A stretch of DNA of 64,000 nucleotides. Origin: Salinisphaera orenii subsp. orenii MK-B5. Its GTDB lineage: Bacteria; Pseudomonadota; Gammaproteobacteria; Nevskiales; Salinisphaeraceae. The stretch is taken from the NCBI RefSeq assembly GCF_003788635.1, contig NZ_AYKH01000012.1:186001-250000 (forward strand). The letters are read 5' to 3'. Position numbers and translations under genes: made by a program. Below are positions 5,842-14,859 of the stretch, in pieces; position 1 is the stretch's first letter, and each line of letters starts with the position of its first letter. Under the pieces are notes generated by a model, which saw nothing but the letters and a program-made list of their open reading frames with translations, made no database searches and was not told where the DNA came from.

Positions 5842-6203
5842 TGCGCCGCTCGCGCTACGCGCTGGGCCTGGCCATCGCCGGCGACATCGGGCTCATCGCC
5901 AGCCTCTTCGTCATCGCCGGCAGCGGCAGTCAGCGCCTGATACTCGCGGCAGTGTTCAGCATTCCCCTGCTGATCGCCCTGAACGGTCTCGCCCGCGGCC
6001 GCATCTACACGGCGGCCTGGGCCTCGATGGCATCGCTGTTCTACCTGGCCTACGCGATGGTCGAGTACATCGCCGGAGCCGGCTCGCTCGGCGTCGATCT
6101 GTGTCTGGCTGCCAGCATCGCACTGTTCACCGGCACCGTGGTGTTCGCGAAATGGGATGCGCGCGAGCGCGGTCTCACCGGAAAGAAACGCGGCAACGAC
6201 TGA
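5841..6203 (+). CDS. DUF2069 family small membrane protein
   Basis: A 120-residue protein with four predicted hydrophobic segments and a short basic C-terminus (GKKRGND). The pattern matches DUF2069, a family of unknown function repeatedly found after wrbA in gamma- and betaproteobacteria. The ATG overlaps the wrbA stop (TGATG), which fixes the start. Last gene of the proS-side run; the recognition rests partly on this context. Confidence 0.82.
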
Positions 6204-6243
6204 GCCGCGTCGACACACCGCACACGCAGGCGACCCGGCCGGC

Positions 6244-6264
6244 GCTGTCGGCCCGGCCGACAGC
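6244..6264. repeat. Inverted repeat after the DUF2069 gene
   Basis: GCTGTCGGCC and GGCCGACAGC flank a single C, forming a 10-bp self-complementary arm pair. No T-run follows on either strand, so it is not a standard intrinsic terminator. It could still slow polymerase or protect the 3' end of the preceding transcript. Confidence 0.5.
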
Positions 6265-6436
6265 CACGCCTGCGGCCCCGCCTTGCGCAAAACACCGATT
6301 CGGCCATCGGATTCAATCACTTGCCGCAACGCGCGCTGTAACCGCAGGGAAACCTCATGTCGTAATCGCTTACACAGCATGAGCGGATGAAGCGCCGTTC
6401 TTTCTCAAATCTATGGTTCATATCCGTTTTCCGCTC

Positions 6437-6452
6437 TGGCACGCGGCCTGCA
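6437..6452 (+). promoter_or_regulatory. Sigma-54-like (-24/-12) promoter
   Basis: TGGCAC, five bases, then CTGCA reproduces the RpoN consensus TGGCAC-N5-TTGCA with one mismatch. The invariant GG and GC are separated by exactly ten bases. It lies 78 bases before the ATG of a PEP-CTERM protein. In many exosortase-bearing bacteria, PEP-CTERM genes are known to be preceded by RpoN promoters driven by the PrsK/PrsR two-component system, which supports the call. Neither regulator is in this window. Confidence 0.6.
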
Positions 6453-6530
6453 TCGAAAAGCCCGGGCCCGGGGGCGGGCTCGTACCGAGGCGATCGCTTC
6501 GGGACAAACAACGGCACGAGGACCGCAGAG

Positions 6531-7235
6531 ATGAAACTCAGGACATTGAGAAACATGCTGGTCGGTACGACATTGCTCGCGGGCAGTGCGACGGCCAGCG
6601 CGATCCCGATCGAACTCGGGCTCGCCATCGACGGCTCGGGGAGTATCGGCTTCTCCACCTTCCAGGCCCAGCAGAACATCTACGCCGACGTGTTGAGCGA
6701 TCCGAACATCGTCCCGCAGGACGGCTCGGTCGCCATCGCGGCGCTGGTGTTTTCCAGCTCGTTCAATACCCTGTTCCCGGCGACCGTCATCGATCCGACG
6801 ACCATCGGCGGCGTGGCCGACGCCATCCGCAACGCGGCCTATCCGGGCGGCGGCACCAATATCGGTATCGGCATCGACGCGCTGACCAGCGAGATCTTCG
6901 GCAACGGCATCGACTCGGATCGCCAGGTCATCGACGTCTCGACCGACGGGGTGGGCTCGCTCGGCACCTCGGTGGCCGATTCGCTCGCGGCCGGCGTGGA
7001 TCAGATCAATTGTCTGGGCATCGGCGCGGGTGCCAACTGCAGCTTCATTCCGGACGACTCGTTCTCCGTGATCATAAGCTCCTTCGACGACCTCGAGAGC
7101 GCACTGCGGCAGAAGCTGCAGCGTGAAATCGGCGGCGGGCCGATCGGCGTGCCCGAGCCGAGCGCCCTCGCCGTGCTGGCCCTGGGTCTGGCCGGCATCG
7201 GTGCGGCCGGTCGGCGCCGGGCGCGTCGGGGCTGA
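6531..7235 (+). CDS. PEP-CTERM-sorted protein with vWFA/DUF1194-like domain
   Basis: The 234-residue product has a signal peptide (cleavage near residue 24, ATASA), then a von Willebrand A-like fold. The MIDAS start is DGSGS (Asp34, Ser36, Ser38), as in the DUF1194 family. The C-terminus carries the PEP-CTERM sorting tag: VPEPS at about 207-211, a hydrophobic helix, and a basic RRRARR end. Such proteins are exported, cut by an exosortase (EpsH/XrtA) and placed on the surface or in the exopolysaccharide matrix. I chose the ATG giving a normal signal peptide; the in-frame upstream extension is not plausible. Confidence 0.88.
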   Translation: MKLRTLRNMLVGTTLLAGSATASAIPIELGLAIDGSGSIGFSTFQAQQNIYADVLSDPNIVPQDGSVAIAALVFSSSFNTLFPATVIDPTTIGGVADAIRNAAYPGGGTNIGIGIDALTSEIFGNGIDSDRQVIDVSTDGVGSLGTSVADSLAAGVDQINCLGIGAGANCSFIPDDSFSVIISSFDDLESALRQKLQREIGGGPIGVPEPSALAVLALGLAGIGAAGRRRARRG

Positions 7236-7284
7236 ACATCGGTGGCTCATGCGGGCCGGCGGCACCCGCTGCCGGCCCTCTGGC

Positions 7285-7980
7285 CTAGATCTCCACCCGC
7301 AGGGCCTGCTTGACGAACGGGATGGTCAGGCGGCGCTGTTCCGCCAGCGACGCCTCGTCGAGCCGCTCGAGCGCGTCCATCAGCCAGGGTACGTCGCGCG
7401 TGCCGTGCCGCAGCAGCCAGCGCGCGGTCGCCTCGGGCAGATCCATGCCGCGCTGAGCGGCACGACGCACGAGCATCGCCTGCTTGTCGGCATCGTCCGG
7501 CGTCGTCATAGCGACCACCCCGCCCCAGCCGAGCCGGCTGGCCAGATCCGGCAGTGCGAGCCCGATATCGGCCGGCGGCCGCGCATCGGCCGCCAGCAAC
7601 CGCCCGCCCCGATGGCGCAGCCCCTCGGTCAGGCTCAGCAGCGCGATCTCGGCGTCGCGGTGGGCGGCGATCGCGGAGACATCGTCCACGCAGACGCAAT
7701 CCATATCGTCGAGGCCGGCGAGCAGCGACTCCGCATCGCGCCCGAGCTGGGCCAGGGGCACGTAGACGCTGCGCGCGCCGCCGTCACCGACCGCGCGACA
7801 CACCGCCTGCAGCAGATGCGTCTTGCCGGTGGCCTCCGGCCCGTGGATGAACAGACGCTCGCTGCGGCCCGCGGCCAGATCCGCGACCGCTGCCTTGGCC
7901 GCACTGTTGCGACCACCCACGAAGGCGTCGAGCGTGGCGCTCTGGGGCAGCTGCACGCCAAGCACGAGCTGAGTGGCCAT
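7285..7980 (-). CDS. hda: DnaA regulatory inactivator Hda
   Basis: A 231-residue AAA+ protein related to DnaA domain III, with no DNA-binding domain IV. The N-terminus VLGVQLPQSATLDAFV carries the clamp-binding QLP motif. A Walker-A-like loop GPEATGKT lies at 47-54, and VCVDDVSAI is the Walker B position. With the beta clamp, Hda stimulates DnaA-ATP hydrolysis to block re-initiation. Its ATG overlaps the stop of the perM-like gene by one base, and that pair, divergent from purM, is the usual gammaproteobacterial context. Confidence 0.93.
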   Translation of the reverse strand: MATQLVLGVQLPQSATLDAFVGGRNSAAKAAVADLAAGRSERLFIHGPEATGKTHLLQAVCRAVGDGGARSVYVPLAQLGRDAESLLAGLDDMDCVCVDDVSAIAAHRDAEIALLSLTEGLRHRGGRLLAADARPPADIGLALPDLASRLGWGGVVAMTTPDDADKQAMLVRRAAQRGMDLPEATARWLLRHGTRDVPWLMDALERLDEASLAEQRRLTIPFVKQALRVEI

Positions 7981-13745: not shown

Positions 13746-14432
13746 TCAGCCGATACGGCGTGTCTGCCACGCGCCGAGTCCGACCAGCATCAGGGCCAGC
13801 CAGGCAAGCGCGGTGCCCGCCGGCTCGGCCACATCGACCGGCGGCGGCTGCTGCCCGCCGTCGACGACGAAGCTGCTGTCGTCACCGTCGCCGATACCCT
13901 GGATATGCGCGGCGGAAATATAGCCCGCCGCGTTGGGGACGAACGGCGATGCGCCCAGCGCGTCGGCGAAAATCAGGTCGTAAACGGCCTGCTCGGCGCC
14001 ATCGAGGCGCCCACCGGGGCCCTGAACGGCCCAGCTGAAGGCCAGATTGTAGTCACCGGTGCCTGTCGGCCCCGCATTCAGGCCTGCCTGGTTGAATACC
14101 GCATCCGCACAGTTTCCGCTCGTACAGCTGAGCGACTGGACACTCGGAGAAAGTGAGAACGCCCAGCCCGGCTGGGCATTGGCGTTGCTTCCCCCCTGCA
14201 CGAAATCACCGCCATCGAGCAGCGACATCAGCGTCAACGTGCCGGTCGTGGCGCCGGTTTCGTAGGAGAACGCCGCGCTGAGCCATGGCGGCGCTCCCGT
14301 CGGGGTCGCTCCGGTATACACCGAACCGAGGTCGATGGTCTGGGTCATCGGTACGGCCAGCGCCGATCCGCCCCAAGCCGCCGCCAAGAATACACCGGCC
14401 CCGAGCAACCGCCTGATATACATCGCATGCAT
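13746..14432 (-). CDS. PEP-CTERM-like sorted exported protein
   Basis: The 228-residue product has a signal peptide (residues 1-26, GGSALA cleavage site) and a Gly/Ala/Ser/Thr-rich beta-type body with one close Cys pair (CTSGNC). The sorting tail reads EPAGTALAWLALMLVGLGAW then QTRRIG: an EP start, a hydrophobic helix and a basic end, as in PEP-CTERM proteins. I chose the ATG nine bases after a GAGG ribosome site. The body matches nothing I recognise. An exosortase should exist elsewhere in the genome. Confidence 0.75.
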   Translation of the reverse strand: MHAMYIRRLLGAGVFLAAAWGGSALAVPMTQTIDLGSVYTGATPTGAPPWLSAAFSYETGATTGTLTLMSLLDGGDFVQGGSNANAQPGWAFSLSPSVQSLSCTSGNCADAVFNQAGLNAGPTGTGDYNLAFSWAVQGPGGRLDGAEQAVYDLIFADALGASPFVPNAAGYISAAHIQGIGDGDDSSFVVDGGQQPPPVDVAEPAGTALAWLALMLVGLGAWQTRRIG

Positions 14433-14859
14433 GGTCTGCACCTCGCTCCATGATGAAACCTGCCCGCGGCAGGGAAAACGAGCACGGGACCAGACATCGC
14501 ATTTTTTTCGCGCCATTGTGTAGACCGTTGATCAGGCGACTATTTTCCCGAACATCTGCGCCAGCGGCTTCGACGTGTCAGAATCGCCGACGGTCGCAAC
14601 GCCCCAGCCGGGCGATCCACCTTTAGCCGAGCCCGATTGTTGTCGGTGGCGCCCCGTCGGCTCACGATCCGGCAAGACGTGTCGATTCGGGCAGTTGCCT
14701 GGTATCAACCGTCGACCTCAAGCCCGCCGGGCTGGATCAGGTATGCCGACCGGCTCCGGAGGCCGCGCCATCCAGCGCGACCGCAGAACGTGGCCGGGCA
14801 GCGACCGGGTGCAAGAATCTCCGACAACCATCAGCCAGCGGCCGCGGCACATCGAAGCT
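14433..14859. other. Intergenic region, no gene recognised
   Basis: This stretch must contain the promoter of the PEP-CTERM gene on the minus strand. A GC-rich palindrome (CCTGCC-CGC-GGCAGG) and a seven-T tract occur near that gene's start. No coding frame resembles a protein family, and the frames present overlap in several phases. Confidence 0.5.

Follow-up and report, generated by a model that had tools for sequence, protein, structure and literature searches.

We identified a compound regulatory region at positions 6358-6452 of the window (the whole 64,000-nucleotide stretch of DNA analysed here, positions 186001-250000 of contig C12 in a genome of 3.67 Mb), which very probably switches a gene for a secreted surface protein on and off, as part of a control system already known for slime-associated proteins. 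The best explanation overall, to which we assign a probability of roughly 0.9, is that the region holds a promoter of the known PrsK/PrsR-RpoN kind serving a vWFA PEP-CTERM gene. Its core is a predicted sigma-54 -24/-12 promoter, TGGCACGCGGCCTGCA at 6437-6452 (+ strand), proposed from the geometry of the site and its repetition across the regulon. The GG at 6438-6439 and the GC at 6450-6451 have ten bases between them (GG-N10-GC), and in 12-position scoring against TGGCACGNNNNTTGCW, which we take to be the sigma-54 -24/-12 consensus, the site reaches 11/12, the sole mismatch being a C at the first T of TTGC. The sequence-only reading of this DNA had described a near-consensus RpoN site with GG and GC ten apart, 78 bases before an ATG; both descriptions hold at the same coordinates, the ATG at 6531 starting 78 nt 3' of TGGCACGCGGCCTGCA. 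Taking C6451 as the -12 position and applying sigma-54 promoter geometry, transcription is predicted to start at 6463 +/-2 nt (+ strand).

The region also contains an element that the earlier reading lacked and that was added by this analysis: a putative enhancer box, TGTCGTAATCGCTTACA at 6358-6374 (+ strand), which corresponds to motif 1 of Haft 2006 and is probably a PrsR binding site. It agrees with the form TGTCG-N7-TTACA at 10/10 positions and lies 62 nt 5' of the -24 box; its 3' end reads CTTACA where motif 1 of Haft 2006 has TTTACA, and the TGTCG-N7-TTACA form is a consensus derived from 30 Salinisphaera sites, not from the Haft 2006 logo. These 30 are what remains of 37 genus sites without the sibling genome G012, with the starts of one orthologous pair set by hand. 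Their 140-nt upstream stretches contain TGTCG in 23/30 cases (4.1 expected from shuffles), TTACA in 14/30 (3.4 expected) and CTTACA in 9/30 (0.7 expected). The 17-nt box is present with at least 8/10 matches at 22/30 sites, compared with 1/30 in reversed and 1/30 in reverse-complemented sequence, a count that is partly circular because the form itself came from these 30 sites, whereas a scan of 369 genomes is not.

That scan searched for the exact pattern TGTCG-N7-TTACA-N(31-90)-TGGC-N8-TGC in 369 genomes of the class Gammaproteobacteria. The composite pattern occurs in 83 of them, the reversed pattern gives 2 matches in all, and PrsR is above cut-off in 106 genomes. The pattern was found in 69 of the 106 genomes with PrsR vs 14 of the 263 without it (69 with both, 37 with PrsR only, 14 with the pattern only, 249 with neither), an association with a Fisher p of about 2e-33 that is uncorrected for kinship. 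Some of the 14 genomes that have the pattern and lack PrsR above cut-off carry it in helical phase. Downstream of 41 of 90 fetched loci a PEP-CTERM-like protein was detected by a crude pattern that gives some false positives and some misses, and more such proteins are visible by eye beyond the 41. Because of this putative enhancer at 6358-6374, the promoter is assigned to PrsR and not to one of the genome's other sigma-54 activators.

The distance between the two elements is quantised. The scan returned 193 composite matches, of which 150 were listed and used; setting aside 2 from the genome of the window leaves 148 sites in 60 genomes. Among the matches listed, the spacers cluster at about 52, 63, 74 and 85 nt, with 13 at 51-53, 68 at 60-65, 33 at 71-77 and 17 at 83-87, and spacers between these groups are rare (2 at 54-59, 4 at 66-70 and 8 at 78-82). 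The best period for the 148 listed sites is 11.1 (R = 0.61), while the maximum in 2000 jittered sets is 0.34. When each genome contributes one place, R has a mean of 0.58 and a minimum of 0.46 (largest null 0.43 in 2000), and with the main group removed R is 0.48 vs a largest null of 0.37. Peaks fixed beforehand (at 50.5, 61.5 and so on) were about 1.5 nt off, with 87/148 sites within 2 nt, and their period was correct. The spacer in the window, 62 nt, is the commonest arrangement.

A third candidate element was found in the spacer, at 6406-6418 (- strand), where the + strand reads CAAATCTATGGTT, matches YAANNNNTTGATW at 7/9 positions and stands 18 nt before TGG. We take WATCAANNNNTTR to be the IHF consensus and YAANNNNTTGATW to be its reverse complement. 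The wider sample comprised 90 loci (30, one each from the first genomes on the composite list, plus 60 chosen, + strand, from genomes with PrsR). In their spacers, YAANNNNTTGATW is matched at 8/9 or better in 28/90 (shuffles: mean 8.0, largest 15/90) and at 9/9 in 8/90 (0.4 in shuffles), and the forward-strand IHF form at 8/9 or better in 19/90 (shuffles: mean 8.0, largest 15). At 46 of the 90 sites an element matching at least 7/9 lies 17-21 nt before the TGG of the -24 box, compared with between 1 and 11 sites in each of six further five-offset windows; these loci cannot count as an independent test, since the IHF-like block was first noticed in composite-pattern sequences. The 30 Salinisphaera sites were collected before the idea arose, and there the element occurs at 17-21 nt in 11/30 and in other windows in 0 to 4.

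Moreover, at 11.0 bp the phasing is sharper for the gap between enhancer and element (R 0.84) than for the spacer as a whole (R 0.68). This comparison covered 46 class sites and 9 sites from Salinisphaera, including that of the window, with the element sought at 15-23 nt only; the best period for the gap is near 10.5-10.8. Salinisphaera and the class share the same gap phase (8.88 and 8.91, respectively) but differ in the phase of the whole spacer (6.47 and 7.86, respectively). In the window the element has an offset of 18 and a gap of 31, the commonest gap, with a weak match of 7/9; the corresponding element of Salinisphaera halophila YIM 95161, CAAATCTATGATT, matches at 8/9 by eye. This phasing points to an enhancer positioned relative to the bend in B-DNA turns; more generally, the comparison of sites suggests that whole helical turns separate enhancer, IHF-like site and promoter. 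A serious alternative, though one we hold to be the less probable, is that the element 17-21 nt before the -24 box marks a contact other than IHF, e.g. with the RNA polymerase alpha subunit or a further regulator. The shortness and A+T-richness of the consensus leave room for such a contact, as does the forward-strand form, itself somewhat over-represented, but IHF is favoured by the consensus match, by the fixed offset, by the sharper phasing of the gap than of the whole spacer, and by the commonness of IHF help at sigma-54 promoters (PMC7057263, in excerpt).

We hypothesize that these elements act in sequence. Judging from the protein families, PrsK would phosphorylate PrsR, and PrsR would bind TGTCG-N7-TTACA at 6358-6374, as co-occurrence and conserved architecture suggest. 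The DNA between enhancer and promoter would then be folded, in most class members probably by IHF at the element with its fixed offset of 17-21 nt from the -24 box, and the fold would let the PrsR ring meet the RpoN polymerase waiting at 6437-6452. Under the general sigma-54 mechanism, ATP hydrolysis by PrsR would open the promoter, and transcription would begin near 6463. Activation would require the enhancer to face the correct side of the helix; its one-turn steps relative to the IHF-like element are a statistical pattern. By family assignment, XrtA would process the secreted vWFA protein at its PEP-CTERM signal, and the processed protein would join an exopolysaccharide-associated surface layer. 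For the PEP-CTERM regulon of Gammaproteobacteria as a whole, we modestly favour a rigid switch of PrsR box, IHF bend at a fixed 17-21 nt, and promoter, with the box about 2-5 whole turns upstream on the same face, so that members of the regulon, and perhaps their strength, might be read from phase. Such a rule of phase and IHF position is sharper and testable, and would let members be predicted from sequence, even where the gene has no PEP-CTERM signal. In addition, well over a hundred natural spacing variants are at hand for studying the short-range reach of an enhancer-binding protein to a sigma-54 promoter.

The promoter itself is of a known kind. Haft 2006 (PMC1569441, in excerpt) described a motif 1 of 17 nt ending in TTTACA and a motif 2 of the -24/-12 type, with a spacer of mean 62.8 nt (SD 10.6, range 32-92) and a mean of 71 nt to the start codon. 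As in those regions, the window has a 17-nt motif 1 ending in -TTACA, a 62-nt spacer, motif 2 and 78 nt to the start, with its PEP-CTERM gene in a large intergenic setting and with PrsR, PrsK, PrsT and an exosortase encoded in the genome. The excerpted text gives the spacer as a mean and SD, whereas helical quantisation comes from the present analysis. The text of Haft 2006 (PMC1569441) contains neither IHF nor helical phasing, its one use of "helical" being in a reference title, and that of Xia 2023 (PMC9850573) contains neither IHF nor "helical". In the literature searched, PEP-CTERM and IHF are not mentioned together (Gao 2018, the main experimental PrsR paper, lies outside that search), matches for PEP-CTERM with "integration host factor" concern other matters, judged by title, and Salinisphaera and PEP-CTERM are not named jointly. 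As far as these searches reach, the phasing and the IHF-like element have not been described for the PrsR promoter class.

Experimental counterparts exist in other bacteria. In Aquincola tertiaricarbonis RN12, the excerpted text of Xia 2023 (PMC9850573) places TGGCAC/CTGCTT at the mapped start of pepA, which needs rpoN1. The window shares with pepA the TGGCAC and CTGC boxes, the C for the first T of TTGC and a PEP-CTERM gene; the Aquincola start was mapped and its RpoN dependence shown, whereas the promoter in the window is predicted from sequence, and the Aquincola protein is PepA whereas ours is a vWFA/DUF1194 protein. A PEP-CTERM gene of Zoogloea is reported to be dependent on both RpoN and PrsK-PrsR (PMC9012009, in excerpt). 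More generally, a review of sigma-54 promoters puts the enhancer some 100-150 bp upstream, often with help from IHF (PMC7057263, in excerpt). The proposed arrangement resembles such IHF-bent promoters in its enhancer-binding activator, DNA looping and putative IHF assistance, but differs in that the enhancer is close, 62 nt from the -24 box, and in the class-wide quantisation by helical turns.

The regulatory genes that this explanation calls for are encoded in the genome. The earlier reading had linked the gene to PrsK/PrsR-RpoN control and had named the lack of an rpoN/prsR pair as grounds against that link; we found one RpoN (456 bits vs a cut-off of 277), on a different contig from the window, and a single PrsR that scores above threshold (677 bits vs 502.6), with PrsK adjoining it (652 bits, cut-off 300). 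PrsT (473 bits, cut-off 312) and XrtA (291 bits, cut-off 208) are also present, and prsR, prsK, prsT and the exosortase gene, all above NCBIfam cut-offs, lie at C12:133-151 kb, outside the window. They belong to an XrtA/PEP-CTERM exopolysaccharide cluster 35-52 kb before the window on the same contig, which also has chain-length, export, deacetylase, FemAB, glycosyltransferase and amidotransferase genes. Together with the regulon sites, these genes support the link and would place the vWFA gene in the PrsK/PrsR-RpoN regulon, known from other bacteria to govern the formation of flocs. The promoter might instead depend on RpoN and be driven by another sigma-54 activator, NtrC-like or other, a reading we consider improbable: TIGR02915, the PrsR model, has 11 strong matches in the genome (E < 1e-60, PrsR included), of which one is above cut-off, but the TGTCG-N7-TTACA box found here at 62 nt tracks PrsR over the 369 genomes and tracks PEP-CTERM genes.

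As a bare string, the promoter motif is at chance level, its placement is beyond chance, and context is decisive. The window holds 9 copies with at most two mismatches where 13.6 are expected, and the whole genome holds 20 exact copies of TGGCACN5YTGCW vs 26 of the reversed pattern, so that the case is built on placement. Directly before PEP-CTERM genes stand 3 of the 20 exact sites. Of the 9 PEP-CTERM genes examined in this genome (from 13 TIGR02595 matches with E <=10, the four weakest, with E >=1.45, being left out), 7 carry a GG-N10-GC site scoring at least 10/12, 59-98 nt before the probable start; a search for the motif before other such genes was a check that the earlier reading had proposed. 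The remaining two have no good promoter site, and 2 of the 7 with a site have a poor motif 1 (6/10). Across the genus, a site of at least 10/12 occurs within 250 nt upstream of 35/67 PEP-CTERM genes, compared with 1/67 in reversed and 1/67 in reverse-complemented sequence, the 67 being 69 matches minus 2 without a usable start and including near-duplicate pairs from two sibling genomes. PrsR and PEP-CTERM proteins are above cut-off in the same 7/14 genus genomes, 6 of which have an exosortase. That TGGCAC-N5-CTGCA is a meaningless coincidence and another promoter drives the gene is very improbable, for although such strings occur at chance frequency in window and genome, the enhancer box, the spacing, the start offset and the recurrence before 7/9 PEP-CTERM genes speak against it, as does the lack of any sigma-70-like site on the + strand over 6150-7300.

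The gene under the predicted PrsR-RpoN promoter (6531-7235, + strand) encodes a vWFA/DUF1194 protein of 234 aa with a signal peptide and a PEP-CTERM sorting signal. Pfam scores are 53.2 bits for DUF1194 and 37.3 for VWA, and the sorting signal is recognised by PF07589 (24.1 bits vs a cut-off of 20.7) and by the NCBIfam model TIGR02595 (19.7 bits, cut-off 16). A longer frame from the ATG at 6387 was rejected, the ribosome-binding site GAGGA at 6518-6522 (+ strand), seen in the sequence, and the signal peptide, judged by eye, both favouring ATG 6531; with this start, the promoter motif is taken as non-coding. Because the + strand frame before the vWFA gene stops at 6203, leaving 327 nt up to ATG 6531, and the likely next gene downstream lies on the opposite strand, the vWFA gene is probably transcribed alone, as a single-gene transcript. 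RNA folding of 6463-6540 gave -31.4 kcal/mol (z -2.57), with two strong stem-loops predicted at 6463-6502 (+ strand), at the 5' end of the transcript.

The vWFA protein has a patchy distribution, being present in 2 of 61 genomes searched, namely its own and that of one congener, so that footprinting at the level of this gene is not possible. A contig scan for relatives of the protein returned S. halophila only, and the closest named relative carrying the gene is S. halophila YIM 95161, at 99% identity, so that the DNA probably comes from a Salinisphaera. Upstream, the two copies differ at 7/210 positions; motif 1 and motif 2 are free of changes, and one of the seven falls within the IHF-like element. 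The stem-loops at 6463-6502 are almost identical.

A second PEP-CTERM-like protein is encoded in the window at 13746-14516 (- strand). It ends in VAEPAGTALAWLALMLVGLGAWQTRRIG, was caught by no Pfam or NCBIfam model, and resembles the PEP-CTERM proteins of two loci (L089 and L090) that both have the switch. A motif-1-like box matching 8/10 lies at 14592-14576, followed 60 nt on by TGGCGCGAAAAAAATGC, which was rejected as a valid promoter, its GG and GC being 12 apart and not 10. This region is perhaps a decayed promoter; in the sibling genome, neither the box nor the TGGCGCGAAAAAAATGC string is present at the position where a counterpart was expected.

Several further observations concern the genus and the composite sites. 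The congener G002 has PrsR and 13 PEP-CTERM matches (its loci include L044, L050, L056 and L062) with no exosortase match despite 99% completeness, so that either the gene falls into an assembly gap (the genome is in 170 contigs) or the sorting enzyme was lost while its substrates were kept. At L128, L129 and L154, in three genomes, one of which (G264) is without PrsR over the cut-off, in-phase composite sites precede a family of small hydrophobic proteins with WPG near the C-terminus and no PEP-CTERM signal, a possible non-PEP-CTERM member of the regulon. Composite sites also stand before proteins that by eye resemble GGDEF diguanylate cyclases (L137 and L163) and an XrtA-associated ATPase (L203), and may connect the regulon with cyclic-di-GMP and with its own export cluster.
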